From NCBI RefSeq assembly GCF_021412625.1, contig NZ_JAKCFI010000001.1:310001-374000 (forward strand): a stretch of 64,000 nucleotides of DNA. Direction: 5' to 3'. The position numbers were made by a program, and so were the translations under genes. The notes below the pieces were generated by a model. That model made no database searches. It had not been told where the DNA came from and was given only the letters and a program-made list of their open reading frames with translations. Of the stretch, positions 17,667-24,323 are shown in pieces (positions within the stretch are counted from its first letter, which is position 1; each line of letters begins with the position of its first letter). Origin of the DNA: Myxococcus stipitatus (lineage in GTDB: Bacteria; Myxococcota; Myxococcia; Myxococcales; Myxococcaceae).

Positions 17667-19462
17667 AGCGGGACGGCGGGCGCATCGACGTGCTGCTGTC
17701 GGCCATCGCGGAGCGGGACTCGGAGGGACGGCTGGTGCGCTCGCTCGCCGTCCTCATCGACGTGACGGAGCGCAAGCGCGCGGAGCGGGCGCTCCTGGAG
17801 AGCGAGAAGCGCCTGCGCGCCATCCTGGACAACGCGTCCTCCATCTTCTTCCTGCTCGACACCCAGGGGCGCTACATCTTCGTCAACCGTCAGTGGGAGC
17901 GGCTGTTCGGCCGCTCGCGCGAGGAGGTCATGGGGAAGTCGGTCCACGAACTCTTCCCCCGCGAAGCCGCGGACGCCTTCGTCGCGCTCAACCAGGAGGT
18001 CCTCGCGCGCCGGGAGCCCATGACGCGGGAGGAGCGCGTGCCCTGCGGCGATGGCCTGCAGACGCACATCACCCAGAAGTTCCCGCTGATGGATGCGTCA
18101 GGCCAGCCCTACGCCATCTGCGGCATCTCCACGGACATCTCCGAGCGCAAGCGCATGGAGGAGACGCAGCGCTTCCTCGCGGAGGCCGGGCGCGTGCTGG
18201 GGACGTCGCTCGACACGGAGACGACGCTCCAGCGCGTCGCGGAGCTGACGGTCTCCCGGCTGGGGGACGTGTGCGTGGTGTTCGTGGGCGAGGAGGGCGC
18301 GCCGCTGCGCGCGGTGGCCGTCGCCGCCAGCGAGCCCGGCCTCGCGGAGGAGGTGCGCGCGCTGTTGGCCGCCCATCCTCCGCTGATGGACGTGCCGGGC
18401 GGGCCCGCGCGGACGCTGGCCTCCGGGCGCCCGGAGGTGGGGCCGCTGCCGGGGGCGCTGCTCGACGGGGAAGGGCTGGACTCCGAGCGGTGGGCGCGGG
18501 TGCGGCGGCTCGCGCGCCAGCCGTCGCTGAGCGTGCCCCTGCGCGCGAGGGGGAGGGGCGTGGGCGTGCTGACGCTGTTGTCGATGCGCCCGGGCCAGGT
18601 CTACTCGGAGGACGACCTGTCGCTCGCGGAGGAGCTGGGCCTGCGCGCGGCCTACGCCATCGACAACGCGCAGCTCTACGGCAAGTCGCGCGAGGCCATC
18701 CGCGCGCGCGACGAGTTCCTGTCCATCGCCTCGCACGAGCTGAAGACGCCGCTGACGTCGATGAAGCTGCGCATGCAGCAGATGGGCTCGCTCCTGTCGC
18801 GCCACGGCCCGGACGCGGCGCTGGCGGGAAAGCTCACCGCGATGCTGCACGTCTGCGAGAGCCAGCTGACCCGGCTGTCGCGGCTGGTGGAGCACCTGCT
18901 CGACGTGTCCCGCATCCACGAGCGCCAGCTGGGGCTGCACCTGGAGGACATGGACCTGGTGAAGGCGGCGCGGGACGTGGTGTCGCACCTGAAGGAACAG
19001 CTGGAGAAGGCGGGCTGCGCGTTCGAGCTGGAGGCGCCGCGCTCGCTGCCCGGACGGTGGGACCGGCTGCGGCTGGAGCAGGTGATGTTCAACCTGCTGT
19101 CCAACGCGGTGAAGTACGGCGCGGGGCAGCCGGTGTGGATGCGGCTGGCCCACCACGACGGGCGCGTGTGGCTGAGCGTGGAGGACCGTGGGATGGGCAT
19201 CCCCCGCGAGTCACACGAGCGCATCTTCGAGCGCTTCGAGCGCGCCGCCTCCGCCAACTACGGTGGCCTGGGGCTGGGCCTCTTCATCACCCGGCGGATC
19301 GCCGAGGCCCACGGCGGCCGGGTGTGGGTGGAGAGCGAGCCGGGGCGGGGCGCCCGCTTCGTCGTCGAGCTGCCCCAGTGGACTCACGGCAGCGGCCCCT
19401 CGACCAGCCGCAGCACGTCCGCCAGCACGCCGGAGGCCGTCACCGCCGCGCCCGCGCCGTAG
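17660..19462 (+). CDS. C-terminal kinase part of a frameshifted PAS sensor
   Basis: From the first in-frame ATG (17660) this frame encodes 600 residues. It has the end of PAS 2, a third PAS (RAILDNASSIFFLLDTQGRY region), a GAF domain (TLQRVAELTVSRLGDVCVVF...), the HisKA box IASHELKTPLTSMKLR and the HATPase boxes (NLLSNAVKYG, DRGMGIP, GGLGLGLFI). With the preceding fragment it makes a complete cytoplasmic hybrid sensor kinase of about 830 residues with no receiver. No transmembrane segment is visible, so it probably senses an internal signal. The last 79 bases overlap the convergent thrA gene tail-to-tail, giving the product a non-conserved Ser/Thr/Pro tail. No cognate regulator adjoins it. 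Confidence 0.85.
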   Translation: MVKRDGGRIDVLLSAIAERDSEGRLVRSLAVLIDVTERKRAERALLESEKRLRAILDNASSIFFLLDTQGRYIFVNRQWERLFGRSREEVMGKSVHELFPREAADAFVALNQEVLARREPMTREERVPCGDGLQTHITQKFPLMDASGQPYAICGISTDISERKRMEETQRFLAEAGRVLGTSLDTETTLQRVAELTVSRLGDVCVVFVGEEGAPLRAVAVAASEPGLAEEVRALLAAHPPLMDVPGGPARTLASGRPEVGPLPGALLDGEGLDSERWARVRRLARQPSLSVPLRARGRGVGVLTLLSMRPGQVYSEDDLSLAEELGLRAAYAIDNAQLYGKSREAIRARDEFLSIASHELKTPLTSMKLRMQQMGSLLSRHGPDAALAGKLTAMLHVCESQLTRLSRLVEHLLDVSRIHERQLGLHLEDMDLVKAARDVVSHLKEQLEKAGCAFELEAPRSLPGRWDRLRLEQVMFNLLSNAVKYGAGQPVWMRLAHHDGRVWLSVEDRGMGIPRESHERIFERFERAASANYGGLGLGLFITRRIAEAHGGRVWVESEPGRGARFVVELPQWTHGSGPSTSRSTSASTPEAVTAAPAP

Positions 19463-21837
19463 CCTCGGATGACCAGGGGCGTGGGGCTGTAGCGCTCCGA
19501 CAGGAAGCTGAGCGCGTTCTCACCGCCCTTCACCGCGGCCAGCGGGTTCTCCAGCGGCACGGCCTTCAGCCCCACGGCGCACCCCTCTGGCGTGACGCTG
19601 CCCACGTAGCGCAGCACCTGGCCCTCGTCGCGCAGCCGCTCCACGCGCCGCTGGAAGGCCGCGTCGACCTCCGGCAGGCGGGCGAGGAAGGCGTCGAGCG
19701 GGCCGGACGCGTCGAAGTCCGCGGGCAGCAGCGACTCGAGCGCCACCTGCTCCAGCTCCACGTCGCGCCCCAGCTCCCGCGCGAGGATGAGCACCTTGCG
19801 CGCCACGTCCGTGCCCTGGAGGTCGTCGCGCGGGTCGGGCTCCGTGAAGCGCTTCTCCATGGCGGTGCCCACCGCCTGGGACAGCGGCACGCCCTGCTCC
19901 GTCAGGCCGAGGATGAACGACAGCGAGCCGGAGAGGATGCCCTCGATGCGCAGCACCCGGTCCCCCGTGCGCAGCATGTTCTTCAGCGTGTCGATGACGG
20001 GCAGGGCCGCGCCCACGTTCGTCTCGTACAGGAAGCGGCGCTGGTGGCGCGAGGCCGTCGCGCGGATGTCGCGCCAGTGCGCCATCTTCCCCGCGTTGGC
20101 CTTCTTGTTGGCGGTGACGACGTGCAGCCCCGCGGCCAGCAGGGACGGGTAGGCGAGCGCCACGTCCTCGCTGCTGGTGCAGTCCACGAAGACGGGCCGC
20201 CCCGGCCGCCGCGCCCGCGTCTGCTCCCGGAAGCCCGCGAGGAGCGCGCAGTCCGGGGCCGCGTCCAGCCGCTGCTTCCAGCCGTCGAGCGGCAGGCCCG
20301 CCGGGTCGATGACGCCGCGTCGGCTGTTGGCGACTGCGCACACGCGCAGCTCCACGCCCTGGGCGCGCAGCTTCGGGGCCTGCTGGGCGAGCTGCCGCAT
20401 CAGCTCCCCGCCCACGCTGCCCACGCCCGCCACCAGCAGCTCCACCACCTCCGTGGTGCCGAAGTAGCGGTGGTGCACGTGCGCCATGGCGCGAGGGCCG
20501 TCCGCCTCCGCGATGACGGCGGAGATGCTCCGCTCGCTGGAGCCCTGGGCGATGGCGGCGATGCTGCATCCCACGTCCGCCAGGCCGCTGAAGAACGTGC
20601 CCGCGACGCCCACGCGGTGGCGCATGCCGTCGCCGACGATGCTGAGCACCGCCAGCTCCCCCTGCCGCTCGATGGTGTCCACCTTGCCGGCCTCGCGCTC
20701 CACCTCGAACTCCGCCTCCAGCGCGCGCACGGCGGCGGAGGCGTCGCCCTGCTGCACGCAGAAGCTGATGGAGCACTCGCTGGAGCCCTGGGTGATGAGC
20801 ACCACGGAGATGCTGGAGCGGGCCATGGCCTCGAAGACGCGCGCCGCGGTGCCGGGCACGCCCTTGAGGCCCGCGCCGGCGATGTTCACCAGCGCCACGT
20901 CCTTCAGGAAGGACAGGCCCCGCACGGGGTGGCGCGGCGGCGCGGCGGTGGCCGTCACCCGGGTCCCCGGGTGGTCCGGCCGGAAGCTGTTGCACACGCG
21001 CACCGGAATGCCCCGCTCGCGCGCCGGCGAAATCGTCTTGGGGTGCAGCACCTTCGCGCCGAAGTAGGCCAGCTCCATGGCCTCCTCGAAAGAGACCTCG
21101 GGCAGCGGGAAGGCCTCCGGCACCAGGCGCGGGTCGGCGCTGAAGATGCCGTCCACGTCCGTCCAGATTTCGAGCAACTCCGCGTCCAGCGCCGCCGCCG
21201 CCAGCGCCGCCGAGTAGTCCGAGCCGCCCCGTCCCAGCGACATCGTCCGGCCGCGCTCGTTGCCGCCGAAGAAGCCCGGCATCAGCATGAGCCCGGGCCC
21301 GGAGGCGTCGCGCAGGGGCGCGAAGCGGGCGCGAATCTCGTCCGCGCGGGGCGTGGCCTGGAGCGGATCCCCCGAGCAGATGAGCGCCTGGCGCGGGTCC
21401 ACGGCGTACGGTGAGAGCCCCCGCGCGGCCAGCATCGCCTCCAGGATGAGGCACGAGGCGCGCTCGCCCAGGCCGGACAGGTGCGCGAGCACGGCGGGGG
21501 AGCACTCGCGCAGCAGGCCCACGCCCTGGAGCAGCCCCCGCAGCTCCATGTCGATGGCCGCCAGCCCCAGCTCGAGCGGCACCTGTGCCCCCACCTCGGC
21601 GCCCAGCTCTCGTGTGATGGACAGGTGCGTGTGCGCGAAGCGGGCCAGGGCCTCCTCCACGGACTCGCCCTCCTGCGCCGCGCGCGCCGCGTCCACCAGC
21701 AGGTTGGTGATGCCGGACACCGCGGACGCCACCAGCATGACGCGTGTCTCCCGCCGCGCCTGCTCCACCAGGTCCACCACCCGGCGCAGCTGCGCCGCGC
21801 CCCCCACGCTCGTGCCGCCGAACTTCATCACCCGCAT
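19384..21837 (-). CDS. thrA: Bifunctional aspartokinase/homoserine dehydrogenase
   Basis: This is an 817-residue fusion of two enzymes of threonine/methionine synthesis. The aspartokinase N-terminus has KFGGTSVGG (5-13), the substrate loop GRGGSDYSA (203-210) and two ACT-type regulatory segments (ITQGSSECSISF, 349-360; IAQGSSERSISAV, 429-441). The homoserine dehydrogenase part begins at the NAD-binding GVGSVGG (471-477) and includes CTSSED and TANKKA. The product supplies homoserine, and feedback by threonine is usual in this family. A GAGGTG ribosome site precedes the ATG at 21837. Upstream on the minus strand lies a Thr-codon attenuator, indicating control by charged tRNA-Thr. The gene overlaps the sensor kinase by 79 bases. 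Confidence 0.95.
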   Translation of the reverse strand: MRVMKFGGTSVGGAAQLRRVVDLVEQARRETRVMLVASAVSGITNLLVDAARAAQEGESVEEALARFAHTHLSITRELGAEVGAQVPLELGLAAIDMELRGLLQGVGLLRECSPAVLAHLSGLGERASCLILEAMLAARGLSPYAVDPRQALICSGDPLQATPRADEIRARFAPLRDASGPGLMLMPGFFGGNERGRTMSLGRGGSDYSAALAAAALDAELLEIWTDVDGIFSADPRLVPEAFPLPEVSFEEAMELAYFGAKVLHPKTISPARERGIPVRVCNSFRPDHPGTRVTATAAPPRHPVRGLSFLKDVALVNIAGAGLKGVPGTAARVFEAMARSSISVVLITQGSSECSISFCVQQGDASAAVRALEAEFEVEREAGKVDTIERQGELAVLSIVGDGMRHRVGVAGTFFSGLADVGCSIAAIAQGSSERSISAVIAEADGPRAMAHVHHRYFGTTEVVELLVAGVGSVGGELMRQLAQQAPKLRAQGVELRVCAVANSRRGVIDPAGLPLDGWKQRLDAAPDCALLAGFREQTRARRPGRPVFVDCTSSEDVALAYPSLLAAGLHVVTANKKANAGKMAHWRDIRATASRHQRRFLYETNVGAALPVIDTLKNMLRTGDRVLRIEGILSGSLSFILGLTEQGVPLSQAVGTAMEKRFTEPDPRDDLQGTDVARKVLILARELGRDVELEQVALESLLPADFDASGPLDAFLARLPEVDAAFQRRVERLRDEGQVLRYVGSVTPEGCAVGLKAVPLENPLAAVKGGENALSFLSERYSPTPLVIRGYGAGAAVTASGVLADVLRLVEGPLP

Positions 21838-21927
21838 GGCGACACCTCGCGACGGAAGGGGGAGGAGGCGACGGGGCTTCTTCGGAGGGGCGTCTTCGAT
21901 GTCCGCATGGCGTTCCTGGGGGATGGA

Positions 21928-21967
21928 GGGAAAACGAAAAAGGCCCCGCGCGGGGGAGCGCGGGGCC
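21928..21967 (-). terminator. Attenuator terminator upstream of thrA
   Basis: On the minus strand GGCCCCGCGC (21967-21958) pairs with GCGCGGGGCC (21951-21942) in a perfect 10-bp stem with a 6-base loop. TTTTTCGTTTT follows immediately. It lies about 105 bases before the thrA ATG and after the Thr-rich leader ORF, in the classic position of an amino-acid operon attenuator. Confidence 0.85.
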
Positions 21968-21998
21968 GAGGTCGGAAGGGGTGGTGCGGCTTTCCGAG

Positions 21999-22136
21999 CT
22001 AGACCTGCCGCGCTCCGCGAGGAGTCACGGTGGTGGTCGTAGTCGTGGTGGTGGTGACGGCGGTCGACGCGCGCGCGAGGGCCGGGGACGTCGTCCGCCC
22101 GGCGTTGCGCGCGATGTCGAGGTTCGAGCCGCTCAC
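21999..22136 (-). CDS. Threonine leader peptide of thrA
   Basis: The frame from GTG (22136) to TAG (21999-22001) encodes 45 residues including nine consecutive Thr codons (22029-22055), then VTPRGARQV and stop. Codons 41-43 read GGAGCGCGG (22016-22008), an exact complement of CCGCGCTCC in the attenuator stem (21963-21955). Stalling at Thr codons would leave GGAGCGCGG free to form an antiterminator; translation to the stop would cover it and let the terminator form. No strong ribosome site is seen before the GTG, so the start is uncertain. It is similar in function to E. coli ThrL but unrelated in sequence apart from the Thr run. Confidence 0.8.
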   Translation of the reverse strand: MSGSNLDIARNAGRTTSPALARASTAVTTTTTTTTTVTPRGARQV

Positions 22137-22270
22137 GGACTGGAACGCTGACTGAAGTGCCAGCTCCGAGTCAAGCCACCCCCCCGCAACGCGTGGGAGG
22201 CGGGTGACGGGAGGCCCGCCGTGGGGCGGCGGCTTCGAGCCGACGTGGGAGGTGGGGGGAGGCGCGTCCT

Positions 22271-22316
22271 TCCGCTCGCGCGGGCCGCCGGGAGAGGGCG
22301 CCCAGGCGCGAGCGGA
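22271..22316 (-). terminator. Possible terminator of the Pit operon
   Basis: TCCGCTCGCGC and GCGCGAGCGGA form a perfect 11-bp stem (22271-22281 and 22306-22316), 12 bases after the transporter stop. There is no T-tract, so intrinsic termination is weak; it may be a 3' stabilising hairpin. Confidence 0.4.
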
Positions 22317-22328
22317 GGGGATGGCCGG

Positions 22329-23354
22329 CTAGGAGGCCAGCCGCACGACGAGCTGGGTCAGCCCGTAGACGAGCATCGCCACGGTGGCCGCGGCGGGGAT
22401 GGTGACCACCCAGGCCCAGATGATGCGGCCGGCGGTACCCCACTTCACCGCGCGCCAGCCGCGCGTGGAGCCCACGCCCACGATGGCCCCGGTGATGGTG
22501 TGCGTGGTGGAGACGGGGATGCCCATCTCCGCCAGCGCGATGATGGTGACGCCGCCGCCCGTCTCCGCGCTGAAGCCGCCGATGGGCGCCAGCTTGGTGA
22601 GGCTGTGGCCCATGGTCCGCACGATGCGCCAGCCGCCGAAGAACGTCCCCAGGGCGATGGCCGCGTGACAGGAGATGATCATCCACCAGTCGATGTGGAA
22701 CGGGCGGTCCTTCCAGATGGTGCCGAAGAGCACCACGGCGATGATGCCCATCACCTTCTGCGCGTCGTTGGTGCCGTGGCTGTAGGAGAAGATGGCGGAG
22801 GACACGAGCTGGAGCCGGCGGAACCACGCGTCCACGCGCAGCGGCGTCTGCTTGTGCACCGCCCAGGTGCTCGCCACCATCAGCGTCGTCCCCAGGAACA
22901 TGCCGATGAGCGGCGACAGGACGATGAAGGCGGCGATCTTCGCGATGCCCGCGCCCACCAGGCCCTTGAACCCGAGCACCGGCAGCGTGGCGCCAATCAT
23001 GCCGCCCGCCAGCGCATGCGACGAGGACGACGGCAGGCCCCACCACCACGTCAGGAGGTTCCAGGCGATGGCGCCCATGAGCGCGGAGAAGATGACCGCC
23101 AGCACCGCCGGCGAGCCCTCGGCCCGGAGCATCTCGAAGTTGATGATGCCCTTGCCCATGGTGTTGGCGACGTGGACGCCCCCGCTGAACGCGGCCACGA
23201 AGTTGAAGAAGGCGGCCCACGCCACGGCCAGGTTGGGCGACAACACCCGGGTGGACACCACGGTGGCGATGGAGTTCGCCGCGTCGTGGAAGCCGTTGAT
23301 GAAGTCGAAGATGAGCGCGACCGCGACAATGAGGATGACGGCGGCGAGTAGCAT
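22329..23354 (-). CDS. PiT-family inorganic phosphate transporter
   Basis: The 341-residue protein has about ten transmembrane helices. The two PiT signature repeats are GFHDAANSIATVV near residue 21 and SYSHGTNDAQKVMG in the second half. Homologues take up phosphate (often as metal phosphate) with cations. Its ATG follows the stop of the DUF47 gene directly (TAGATG at 23357-23352), so the two are translationally coupled. The hydrophobic pattern runs without breaks. This DUF47-Pit pair is widely conserved and is probably a low-affinity phosphate uptake system. Confidence 0.93.
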   Translation of the reverse strand: MLLAAVILIVAVALIFDFINGFHDAANSIATVVSTRVLSPNLAVAWAAFFNFVAAFSGGVHVANTMGKGIINFEMLRAEGSPAVLAVIFSALMGAIAWNLLTWWWGLPSSSSHALAGGMIGATLPVLGFKGLVGAGIAKIAAFIVLSPLIGMFLGTTLMVASTWAVHKQTPLRVDAWFRRLQLVSSAIFSYSHGTNDAQKVMGIIAVVLFGTIWKDRPFHIDWWMIISCHAAIALGTFFGGWRIVRTMGHSLTKLAPIGGFSAETGGGVTIIALAEMGIPVSTTHTITGAIVGVGSTRGWRAVKWGTAGRIIWAWVVTIPAAATVAMLVYGLTQLVVRLAS

Positions 23355-23981
23355 CTAGGAGTGCTCCAGCACCACGCCTTCGATGACATTGGCCACGCCC
23401 TGGCACTTGTCCGTGGCGGTCTCGATGAGGTCGTAGATCTCCTTCCATTTGATGATGGTCAGAGTGTCGACCCCGCTCTTGAAGAGCCGGCCCAGTCCGG
23501 ACCGCAGCACCTCGTCCGCCTGGCTCTCCAACTGCTTGATGTCCTTGCAGCCCGCGAGAATCTGGTCCGGCTTCTTGATGAGCCGCAGCGCCGCCACGGC
23601 CTCCTGCACCTTCTCCGTCGACAGCACCAGCAGCCGCGCCAGCTCCGTGGCGTCCGGCAGGCTGGATTCGATTTCGTAGTAGTGCAGCCGCGCCGCCGCC
23701 GCGTTGGTCAGGTCCAACACGTCGTCGATGCGCGACAGCAGGGAGTGGATCTGCGCCCGGTCGAACGGGGTGATGAACTGCTGGTGCAGCCGGTTGAACG
23801 CGGTGTGGGTCACCTCGTCGCCCTGGTGCTCCACGTCCTTGAGCGCGCGGACGCGCTCGGGCACGTCACGGTAGTCTCGCAACAGGTCGTACAGCATCTT
23901 CGCGCCCTTGACGGTCGCGGCGCATTGCTTGTCGAAGTCGTCGAAGAACTCGTCCGACTTGGGCATCAGCCTTTCGAGCAT
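23355..23981 (-). CDS. DUF47 PhoU-like Pit accessory protein
   Basis: The protein has 208 residues from the ATG at 23981 and is all-helical in character. It opens LMPKSDEFFDDFDKQC and has repeated acidic and hydrophobic helices (HQGDEVTHTAFNRLHQQF, PFDRAQIHSLLSRIDDV) like PhoU-related DUF47 proteins. These bind metal clusters and modulate phosphate transport by Pit. A GGGAG ribosome site lies upstream. The gene precedes the transporter with no gap. An in-frame ATG 33 bases upstream exists, but its ribosome site is poor. Confidence 0.9.
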   Translation of the reverse strand: MLERLMPKSDEFFDDFDKQCAATVKGAKMLYDLLRDYRDVPERVRALKDVEHQGDEVTHTAFNRLHQQFITPFDRAQIHSLLSRIDDVLDLTNAAAARLHYYEIESSLPDATELARLLVLSTEKVQEAVAALRLIKKPDQILAGCKDIKQLESQADEVLRSGLGRLFKSGVDTLTIIKWKEIYDLIETATDKCQGVANVIEGVVLEHS

Positions 23982-24323
23982 CGCTCCCTCTCCCTGTCTC
24001 GGCCCGTGGAACACAGGCCCATGTCGCCATGGGGCGTCACCTGCGCGTGACGGACCCGTGGCGCGCCTGTGACTACCTCACCTGGGGAGAATCGCCAGCC
24101 TTCCTTTTTGACTTGCAAGCAGCCGACGGAACCCACAAGGGGCGCCCGGCGGCCCGTTGGGCGCGGGTGCTACAGGTCGCGCACGCGCATGGAGGCGGGG
24201 ACTCCCCCCGTCAGCCCGGACACGGACGTGGGGAGCGGGCTGTCGATGTAGGTCCCAAGACCCGACAGGCCGGTGTGGGCGGGGGGCGGGAGGCGATGGT
24301 TGCGTCGCCTCCGCCTCCGAGCC
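23982..24323. other. Intergenic gap between DUF47 and thioredoxin genes
   Basis: This 342-base stretch holds no gene I can support. It has one hairpin, GGAGGCGA/TCGCCTCC (24289-24312), immediately downstream of the thioredoxin stop on the minus strand and without a T-tract; it may mark the 3' end of that transcript. A short A/T-rich patch at 24108-24120 is the most promoter-like part. No PHO-type repeat was clear. Confidence 0.3.

Follow-up and report, generated by a model that had tools for sequence, protein, structure and literature searches.

The window that we analyzed is a stretch of 64,000 nucleotides from Myxococcus stipitatus. On its minus strand, it encodes ThrA, a bifunctional aspartokinase-homoserine dehydrogenase (AK-HSD) of 817 amino acids (19384..21837; AA_kinase, ACT, NAD_binding_3, and Homoserine_dh in Pfam). 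Aspartokinase and homoserine dehydrogenase are enzymes of the threonine pathway. The protein is 45% identical to ThrA from E. coli and 94% identical to ThrA from Myxococcus dinghuensis. A first-pass annotation, made from the window's letters, had proposed that thrA is preceded by a threonine attenuator: an ORF of 45 codons that includes nine Thr codons in a row, a short segment just before its stop codon that could pair with a terminator, and a 10-bp terminator stem. We found all of these elements at the positions that it gave.

On the minus strand, the order is the leader ORF (uORF1) with its Thr run, then segment 2, a stop codon, a perfect 10-bp terminator, and thrA. uORF1 (21999..22136) has 45 codons and a GTG start, and its translation, by direct reading, is VSGSNLDIARNAGRTTSPALARASTAVTTTTTTTTTVTPRGARQV. 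The nine Thr codons that we consider to be the control codons are at 22029..22055, and there is one more Thr codon two codons past the run. A pattern of nine ACB codons has a single match in this 10.12 Mb genome (10,122,657 bases, both strands), and the reversed pattern, as a control, has none. (An ACS version of the pattern has no match because the run includes ACT codons.) Segment 2 (GGAGCGCGG; 22008..22016) is followed directly by CAGGTC and the TAG stop codon (22001-21999). The intrinsic terminator hairpin, GGCCCCGCGC-TCCCCC-GCGCGGGGCC, is at 21942..21967, and its T tract, TTTTTCGTTTT, is at 21931..21941 (direct reading). Between the terminator and thrA there is a second small ORF of 26 codons, uORF2 (21828..21908, also on the minus strand), which has an SD-like AGGA and whose stop codon overlaps the start of thrA.

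Competing pairings before thrA

Segment 2 pairs with segment 3 (CCGCGCTCC; 21955..21963), which comprises six bases of the terminator's 5' arm and three bases of its loop, just as the annotation had it. Because the antiterminator (2:3) and the terminator (3:4) both need 21963-21955, the two pairings exclude each other. Folding also identified a segment 1 (CCGTGACTCC; 22021..22030), which overlaps the last control codon and pairs with segment 2 to form a 9-bp pre-emptor hairpin (22030-22021 with 22016-22008). The predicted energies were -24.2 kcal/mol for the terminator and -31.9 kcal/mol for the antiterminator segment (0 of 200 shuffles were as good, in either case), and -12.8 kcal/mol for the pre-emptor hairpin (1 of 200 shuffles). 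In the predicted fold of a leader truncated at the stop codon, all of segment 2 pairs with segment 1 (unpaired probability of 0.00). Since the pre-emptor completes the set, we read the uORF1 region as having the classical four-segment anatomy of a ribosome-mediated attenuator. There is also a 5' hairpin inside uORF1 (22071..22110), which might be a pause hairpin. As folded from the window's sequence alone, it is unremarkable (35 of 200 shuffles were as good); its covariation among relatives is described below.

We predict that thrA is controlled by a ribosome-mediated transcription attenuator that responds to threonine, and we put the probability of this at roughly 90%. The sequence elements are present, their pairings are mutually exclusive, and both are conserved (see below); the attenuator interpretation of the first-pass annotation is supported as far as computation can tell. 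RNA polymerase would start at the start codon of the leader, or only a few bases from it, and would pause at the leader, and a ribosome would load on the nearly leaderless end and follow the polymerase. If Thr-tRNA is ample, the ribosome would reach the TAG codon and cover segment 2, the 3:4 terminator would form, and thrA would be off. If Thr-tRNA is scarce, the ribosome would stall at the last Thr codons and cover segment 1, which would block the 1:2 pairing; segment 2 would then pair with segment 3, the terminator would be pre-empted, and the polymerase would enter thrA. Were the ribosome to stall at the first Thr codons instead, segment 1 would remain free, and under very strong starvation the leader might terminate again.

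The arrangement resembles thrL from E. coli (RF00506 in Rfam), which is also a short Thr-rich ORF, with a terminator just before a thrA that encodes a homologous AK-HSD. But thrL has Ile codons as well as Thr codons, while the control region here has Thr codons only; thrL encodes 21 amino acids instead of 45 and starts 73 nt after a TTGACT box instead of 32 nt; and the second small ORF before thrA is not a feature of the E. coli leader. The Thr_leader model (RF00506) had no match at E ≤ 1 in positions 20000-24000 of the window, and none at its gathering score in five related loci; as a positive control, the E. coli locus scored 122 bits. The model also fails to match four gammaproteobacterial thrA loci, so it looks narrow.

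Conservation and variation in myxobacteria

ThrA of this type (E ≤ 1e-180) was found in 42 of 195 genomes of Myxococcota and was confined to 2 of the 90 genera searched. The DNA upstream of thrA was readable in 39 of the 42 genomes. (One contig begins 62 bases before thrA, and G065 and G067 gave no 5' end for thrA.) The leader ORF, segment 2, the stop spacing, and the terminator are kept in 38 of these 39 genomes of Myxococcus, Pyxidicoccus, or Corallococcus, including the window's own. The alignment of relatives that the annotation had called for thus bears it out on these elements, and on Thr runs for all but 11 Corallococcus leaders, which lack a continuous run. We parsed 37 distinct leaders, 26 from Myxococcus or Pyxidicoccus and 11 from the Corallococcus genus group; since the parser required the segment-2/stop and terminator motifs, their presence in all 37 is partly by construction. 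Among the loci with DNA there, the parser failed on only two, L109 and L110, both from the Corallococcus group, which we then read by eye. L109 retains the ORF and has one mismatch in segment 2, and in L110, segment 2 is gone and the frame is shifted, owing to a deletion of about 10 bases. In these two loci, segment 2 looks to be in decay. The stop codon lies 6 nt after segment 2 in 29 distinct segment 2-3 stretches.

All 26 leaders from Myxococcus or Pyxidicoccus have a longest Thr run of 5-13 codons, and the runs differ by whole codons. In all 11 Corallococcus leaders, the longest run is 2, and the Thr codons are spaced. Over the leaders, ACC is used 190 times, ACG 175 times, and ACT 70 times. 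We counted codon changes over 27 nearest-neighbor pairs: 38 of the changes that touch Thr codons were synonymous and 27 were not, versus 23 and 90 for the other leader codons (obtained by subtraction; Fisher p = 5e-7, which is a guide only, as the neighbors are related). The mostly synonymous changes at Thr codons imply that the Thr codons are kept rather than the peptide. As controls, we considered 30 regions upstream of other AK-HSD genes or of HSD-only genes, and none had a run of Thr or Ile codons or a terminator. (The script for these regions was set for dense runs; given Corallococcus thrA, it reported the terminator in 9 of 10 cases and no run.)

The best of the rival explanations is that the leader is constitutive or is a decaying relic, so that the terminator trims the expression of thrA and the supply of threonine is irrelevant. 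This would fit with the spaced Thr codons in Corallococcus, the mismatch in L109, the deletion in L110, and the free change of the non-Thr codons. However, the persistence of the Thr run in every Myxococcus or Pyxidicoccus leader, together with the mostly synonymous change at its codons, argues against a relic, and we consider this explanation to be quite improbable.

Another explanation is that the hairpin is just the terminator of an upstream gene for a phosphate transporter (PHO4), and that the Thr-rich ORF arose by chance. In the window, PHO4 is indeed upstream on the same strand (22329-23354), and in 7 of the 20 loci that we searched, there are 97-175 nt between the end of the PHO4 match and the leader start. 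But in three other loci (L001, L002, and L015), about 1.7 kb separates PHO4 from the leader, and in the remaining 10 there is no PHO4 match. These 10 include four loci from the Corallococcus group (L011, L012, L016, and L017) and three from Holophagaceae, and all seven of those still carry the leader and the terminator before thrA. Also, a run of nine Thr codons that is unique in its genome is hard to reconcile with a chance ORF, which leaves this explanation with very little going for it. Less probable still is that the leader is a riboswitch or a T-box that binds a metabolite or a tRNA: the additional conserved and covarying 5' hairpin would suit such an element, but no Rfam family reached its gathering score in five related loci, the three matches in positions 20000-24000 of the window were all far below theirs (one of them, Pseudomon-1 with E = 0.81, overlaps the leader), and the in-frame Thr codons would presumably serve no purpose.

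For the ribosome-mediated attenuator, the pairings themselves are kept to different degrees. Across all 37 leaders, the predicted energies are -31.1 to -41.5 kcal/mol for the segment 2-3 stretch and -20.9 to -24.8 kcal/mol for the terminator. The 1:2 pre-emptor pairing is strong in the window and is shorter or different in many relatives. In a consensus structure from RNAalifold, the 5' hairpin and the terminator are both present, along with a small 1:2 hairpin. The annotation had also looked to compensatory changes in the antiterminator and terminator stems; within Myxococcaceae there are none, because these stems are nearly invariant. None of the 11 consensus antiterminator pairs has two-sided changes within the family, and this absence of covariation neither supports nor refutes the pairs. 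Compensatory changes were found only in the 5' hairpin, where 5 of the 10 pairs have two-sided changes and 94.6% of the cells are paired, versus at most 75.9% in slid versions. Its covariation score was reached by 0 of 500 shuffles; the number of two-sided pairs was reached by 9 of 500, and the number of pair types by 105 of 500.

The leader ORF of the proposed attenuator is probably leaderless, with a weak -10 element in Myxococcus. A -35-like box, TTGACT, is at 22169..22174 (minus strand) and is kept in relatives: all 26 leaders from Myxococcus or Pyxidicoccus have a TTGAC box 31-32 nt ahead of their start codon (32 nt in the window). By eye, CAGCGT (22145..22150, minus strand), 8 nt before the start codon, could be a weak -10 hexamer; a consensus promoter scan reported no promoter-like site at the leader. 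All 11 Corallococcus leaders lack the TTGAC box and have TAGGAT 9 nt before the ATG instead. For the Holophagaceae, we defined the start as whichever in-frame ATG or GTG came first at 26-39 nt past TTGACN; the distance from TTGACN to this start is 29 nt for 26 of 33 leaders and 30 nt for the other 7. (The 34th has no DNA there.) Taking the groups together, 59 of 70 readable leaders have a TTGAC box 29-32 nt ahead of the start. Given the ordinary spacing of sigma-70 promoters, these distances imply that the transcript would start at the start codon or no more than about 3 nt away from it. With the set of SD-like motifs that we tried, there is no match before the leader start in 26 of the 37 myxobacterial leaders, and the matches in the other 11 are TAGGAT itself.

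A leaderless attenuator has a precedent in the trpL attenuator of Sinorhizobium (S.) meliloti, whose leader RNA begins with the start codon, according to the portion of PMC7298713 that we draw on. That system has Trp codons and precedes another gene, and its leader RNA (rnTrpL) and its peptide (peTrpL) act in trans.

Similar leaders in Holophagaceae and the choice of control codons

Using a threshold of E ≤ 1e-150, we found ThrA in 42 of 61 genomes of Holophagaceae, which is the family of the genome with L018. All 34 of the loci that we examined from those 42 genomes (L150-L183) have a similar leader before thrA. The leader ORF has 2-8 Thr among its last 22 codons and stops 20-34 nt before a GC-rich terminator near thrA; the script takes the Thr-richest ORF that ends there, and weak cases such as L157 and L179 depend on this rule. 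Five of these leaders end with ARPV-stop, encoded with GGTCTAG, as in Myxococcus. The leaders from the two groups share their position, the promoter distance, the Thr codons, and the core of the terminator. They differ in that the Holophagaceae leaders have Ile, Met, and Asn codons as well and have other sequences for segments 2 and 3; also, by eye, Holophagaceae have no second ORF between the terminator and thrA, unlike Myxococcus with its uORF2. In a first scan, this order of run and terminator was not seen in 14 more distant acidobacterial loci (L184-L197) or in L013, L014, and L019; the scan also overlooked the terminator at several of the Holophagaceae loci among those 34.

Among the 71 leaders from the two phyla, there are 41 distinct pairs of segments 2 and 3. 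For 22 of these, the segments anneal better than with a shuffled segment 2 (p ≤ 0.05). The other 19 do not beat the shuffles at this level, including the M. xanthus type (p = 0.31 and 0.47). Annealing energies averaged -21.7 kcal/mol for cognate pairs, versus -19.0 kcal/mol when segments were swapped between the groups.

The patchy distribution of this type of ThrA, in 2 of 90 genera of Myxococcota, suggests that the gene and its switch moved between the phyla, and either direction is possible. In a tree of ThrA, the Myxococcaceae lie among the Holophagae (24-row clade, 100/99; 19-row clade, 95/97). By an AU test, neither of two alternatives was rejected: a single Holophagae clade (p = 0.06), or Holophagae and myxobacteria joined in one clade without L013 and L014 (p = 0.215). 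(In this tree, L013 and L014 are on long branches, and L016 was left out as too short.) A plasmid collection contained no similar DNA.

The control codons correspond to the presence or absence of isoleucine synthesis genes. The annotation had remarked that the window's control region has Thr but no Ile codons, and this is true of all 37 myxobacterial leaders: none has Ile in its last 24 codons, versus 30 of the 34 leaders from Holophagaceae. In 21 hand-chosen genomes, we searched for ilvC and ilvD, and both were above the family cutoffs in 0 of 11 myxobacterial genomes versus 9 of 10 from Holophagaceae; three of the 11 had weak matches to ilvC, of about 21 bits. The exception in Holophagaceae is G147, an unfinished genome with Ile retained in its leader. 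M. xanthus is described as auxotrophic for leucine, isoleucine, and valine in the part of PMC8538405 that we cite. If threonine is not a precursor of isoleucine in myxobacteria, this would explain a control region with Thr only. The match between Ile codons and ilv genes amounts to a single comparison of two lineages rather than to multiple independent cases.

Two other amino acids also stand out in the last 24 codons of the Holophagaceae leaders, which are 5.9% Met and 4.3% Asn. In the 37 myxobacterial leaders, these shares are 0.3% and 0. Like threonine, methionine and asparagine are products of the aspartate family.

uORF2 and the wider setting

In all 37 myxobacterial leaders, there is an SD-led ATG between the terminator and thrA, and its frame terminates across the thrA start. 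The stop codon of uORF2 ends at +4 in 9 leaders and at +10 in 28. Across the 37 leaders, the uORF2 distance has seven different values, between 59 and 77, and it is always 2 modulo 3. Thr accounts for 22% of the first 12 codons of uORF2, and for 3% and 2% in the other frames. This arrangement suggests that uORF2 is translationally coupled to thrA. In folding predictions, the accessibility of the thrA SD is 0.30, versus 0.31 with shuffled upstream sequence, and it is 0.43 with a ribosome on uORF2 (a value that has no matched control). By eye, the thrA start of L158 and similar loci (GGAGTCCCCATGCAGCCCACCCCC and variants) resembles the uORF2 start of L004 from Pyxidicoccus, and on that visual likeness uORF2 may be a relic of an older thrA start.

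A broader scenario would be that a threonine-sensing cassette moved with thrA between Acidobacteriota and myxobacteria; that its control codons were retuned to the pathway of the host, with Ile dropped where isoleucine is not made from threonine; and that it gained a second tier, in which the Thr-rich uORF2 couples the translation of thrA to the supply of threonine through a stop codon that overlaps the thrA start. In this scenario, the leaderless leader RNA of thrA may also act in trans, like rnTrpL and peTrpL. Taken as a whole, we regard this scenario as unlikely, although not as far-fetched as the rivals above. If the proposed attenuators are real, then leader-peptide attenuation by amino acids extends to Myxococcota and Acidobacteriota, and there is a natural experiment in which related genes and switches reside in hosts with or without isoleucine synthesis and have control codons that differ accordingly. 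In myxobacteria, a shortage of amino acids triggers multicellular development. A direct sensor of threonine with a probably leaderless leader ORF would be easily tested in these bacteria, and uORF2 is a further conserved element, at the start of thrA.

The mechanism of attenuation is known, and its myxobacterial and acidobacterial setting is apparently undescribed. The annotation knew of no example in Myxococcota. Our search of open-access titles and the starts of abstracts, a corpus that excludes most subscription papers, likewise found no description of a threonine attenuator from either group. This case adds to the known kind in its host groups, its probably leaderless start, its match between codons and pathway, and its uORF2.

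The window's genome also encodes a second AK-HSD (G000:C10:157603-160065; 40% identity), and the region upstream of it (L120) has no Thr run and no terminator. In this genome, which is the only one that we searched for the threonine synthase family, there were three matches above the cutoff (on G000:C7 and G000:C2). The loci of four matches to this family had no clear leader with a Thr run. L200-L202 contain a few frames in which 5 of 10 codons are Thr. We also noticed that L009, from a record for Comamonas sp. KCTC 72670, is a thrA locus of the Myxococcus type (82% identity for ThrA); this record may be misnamed.
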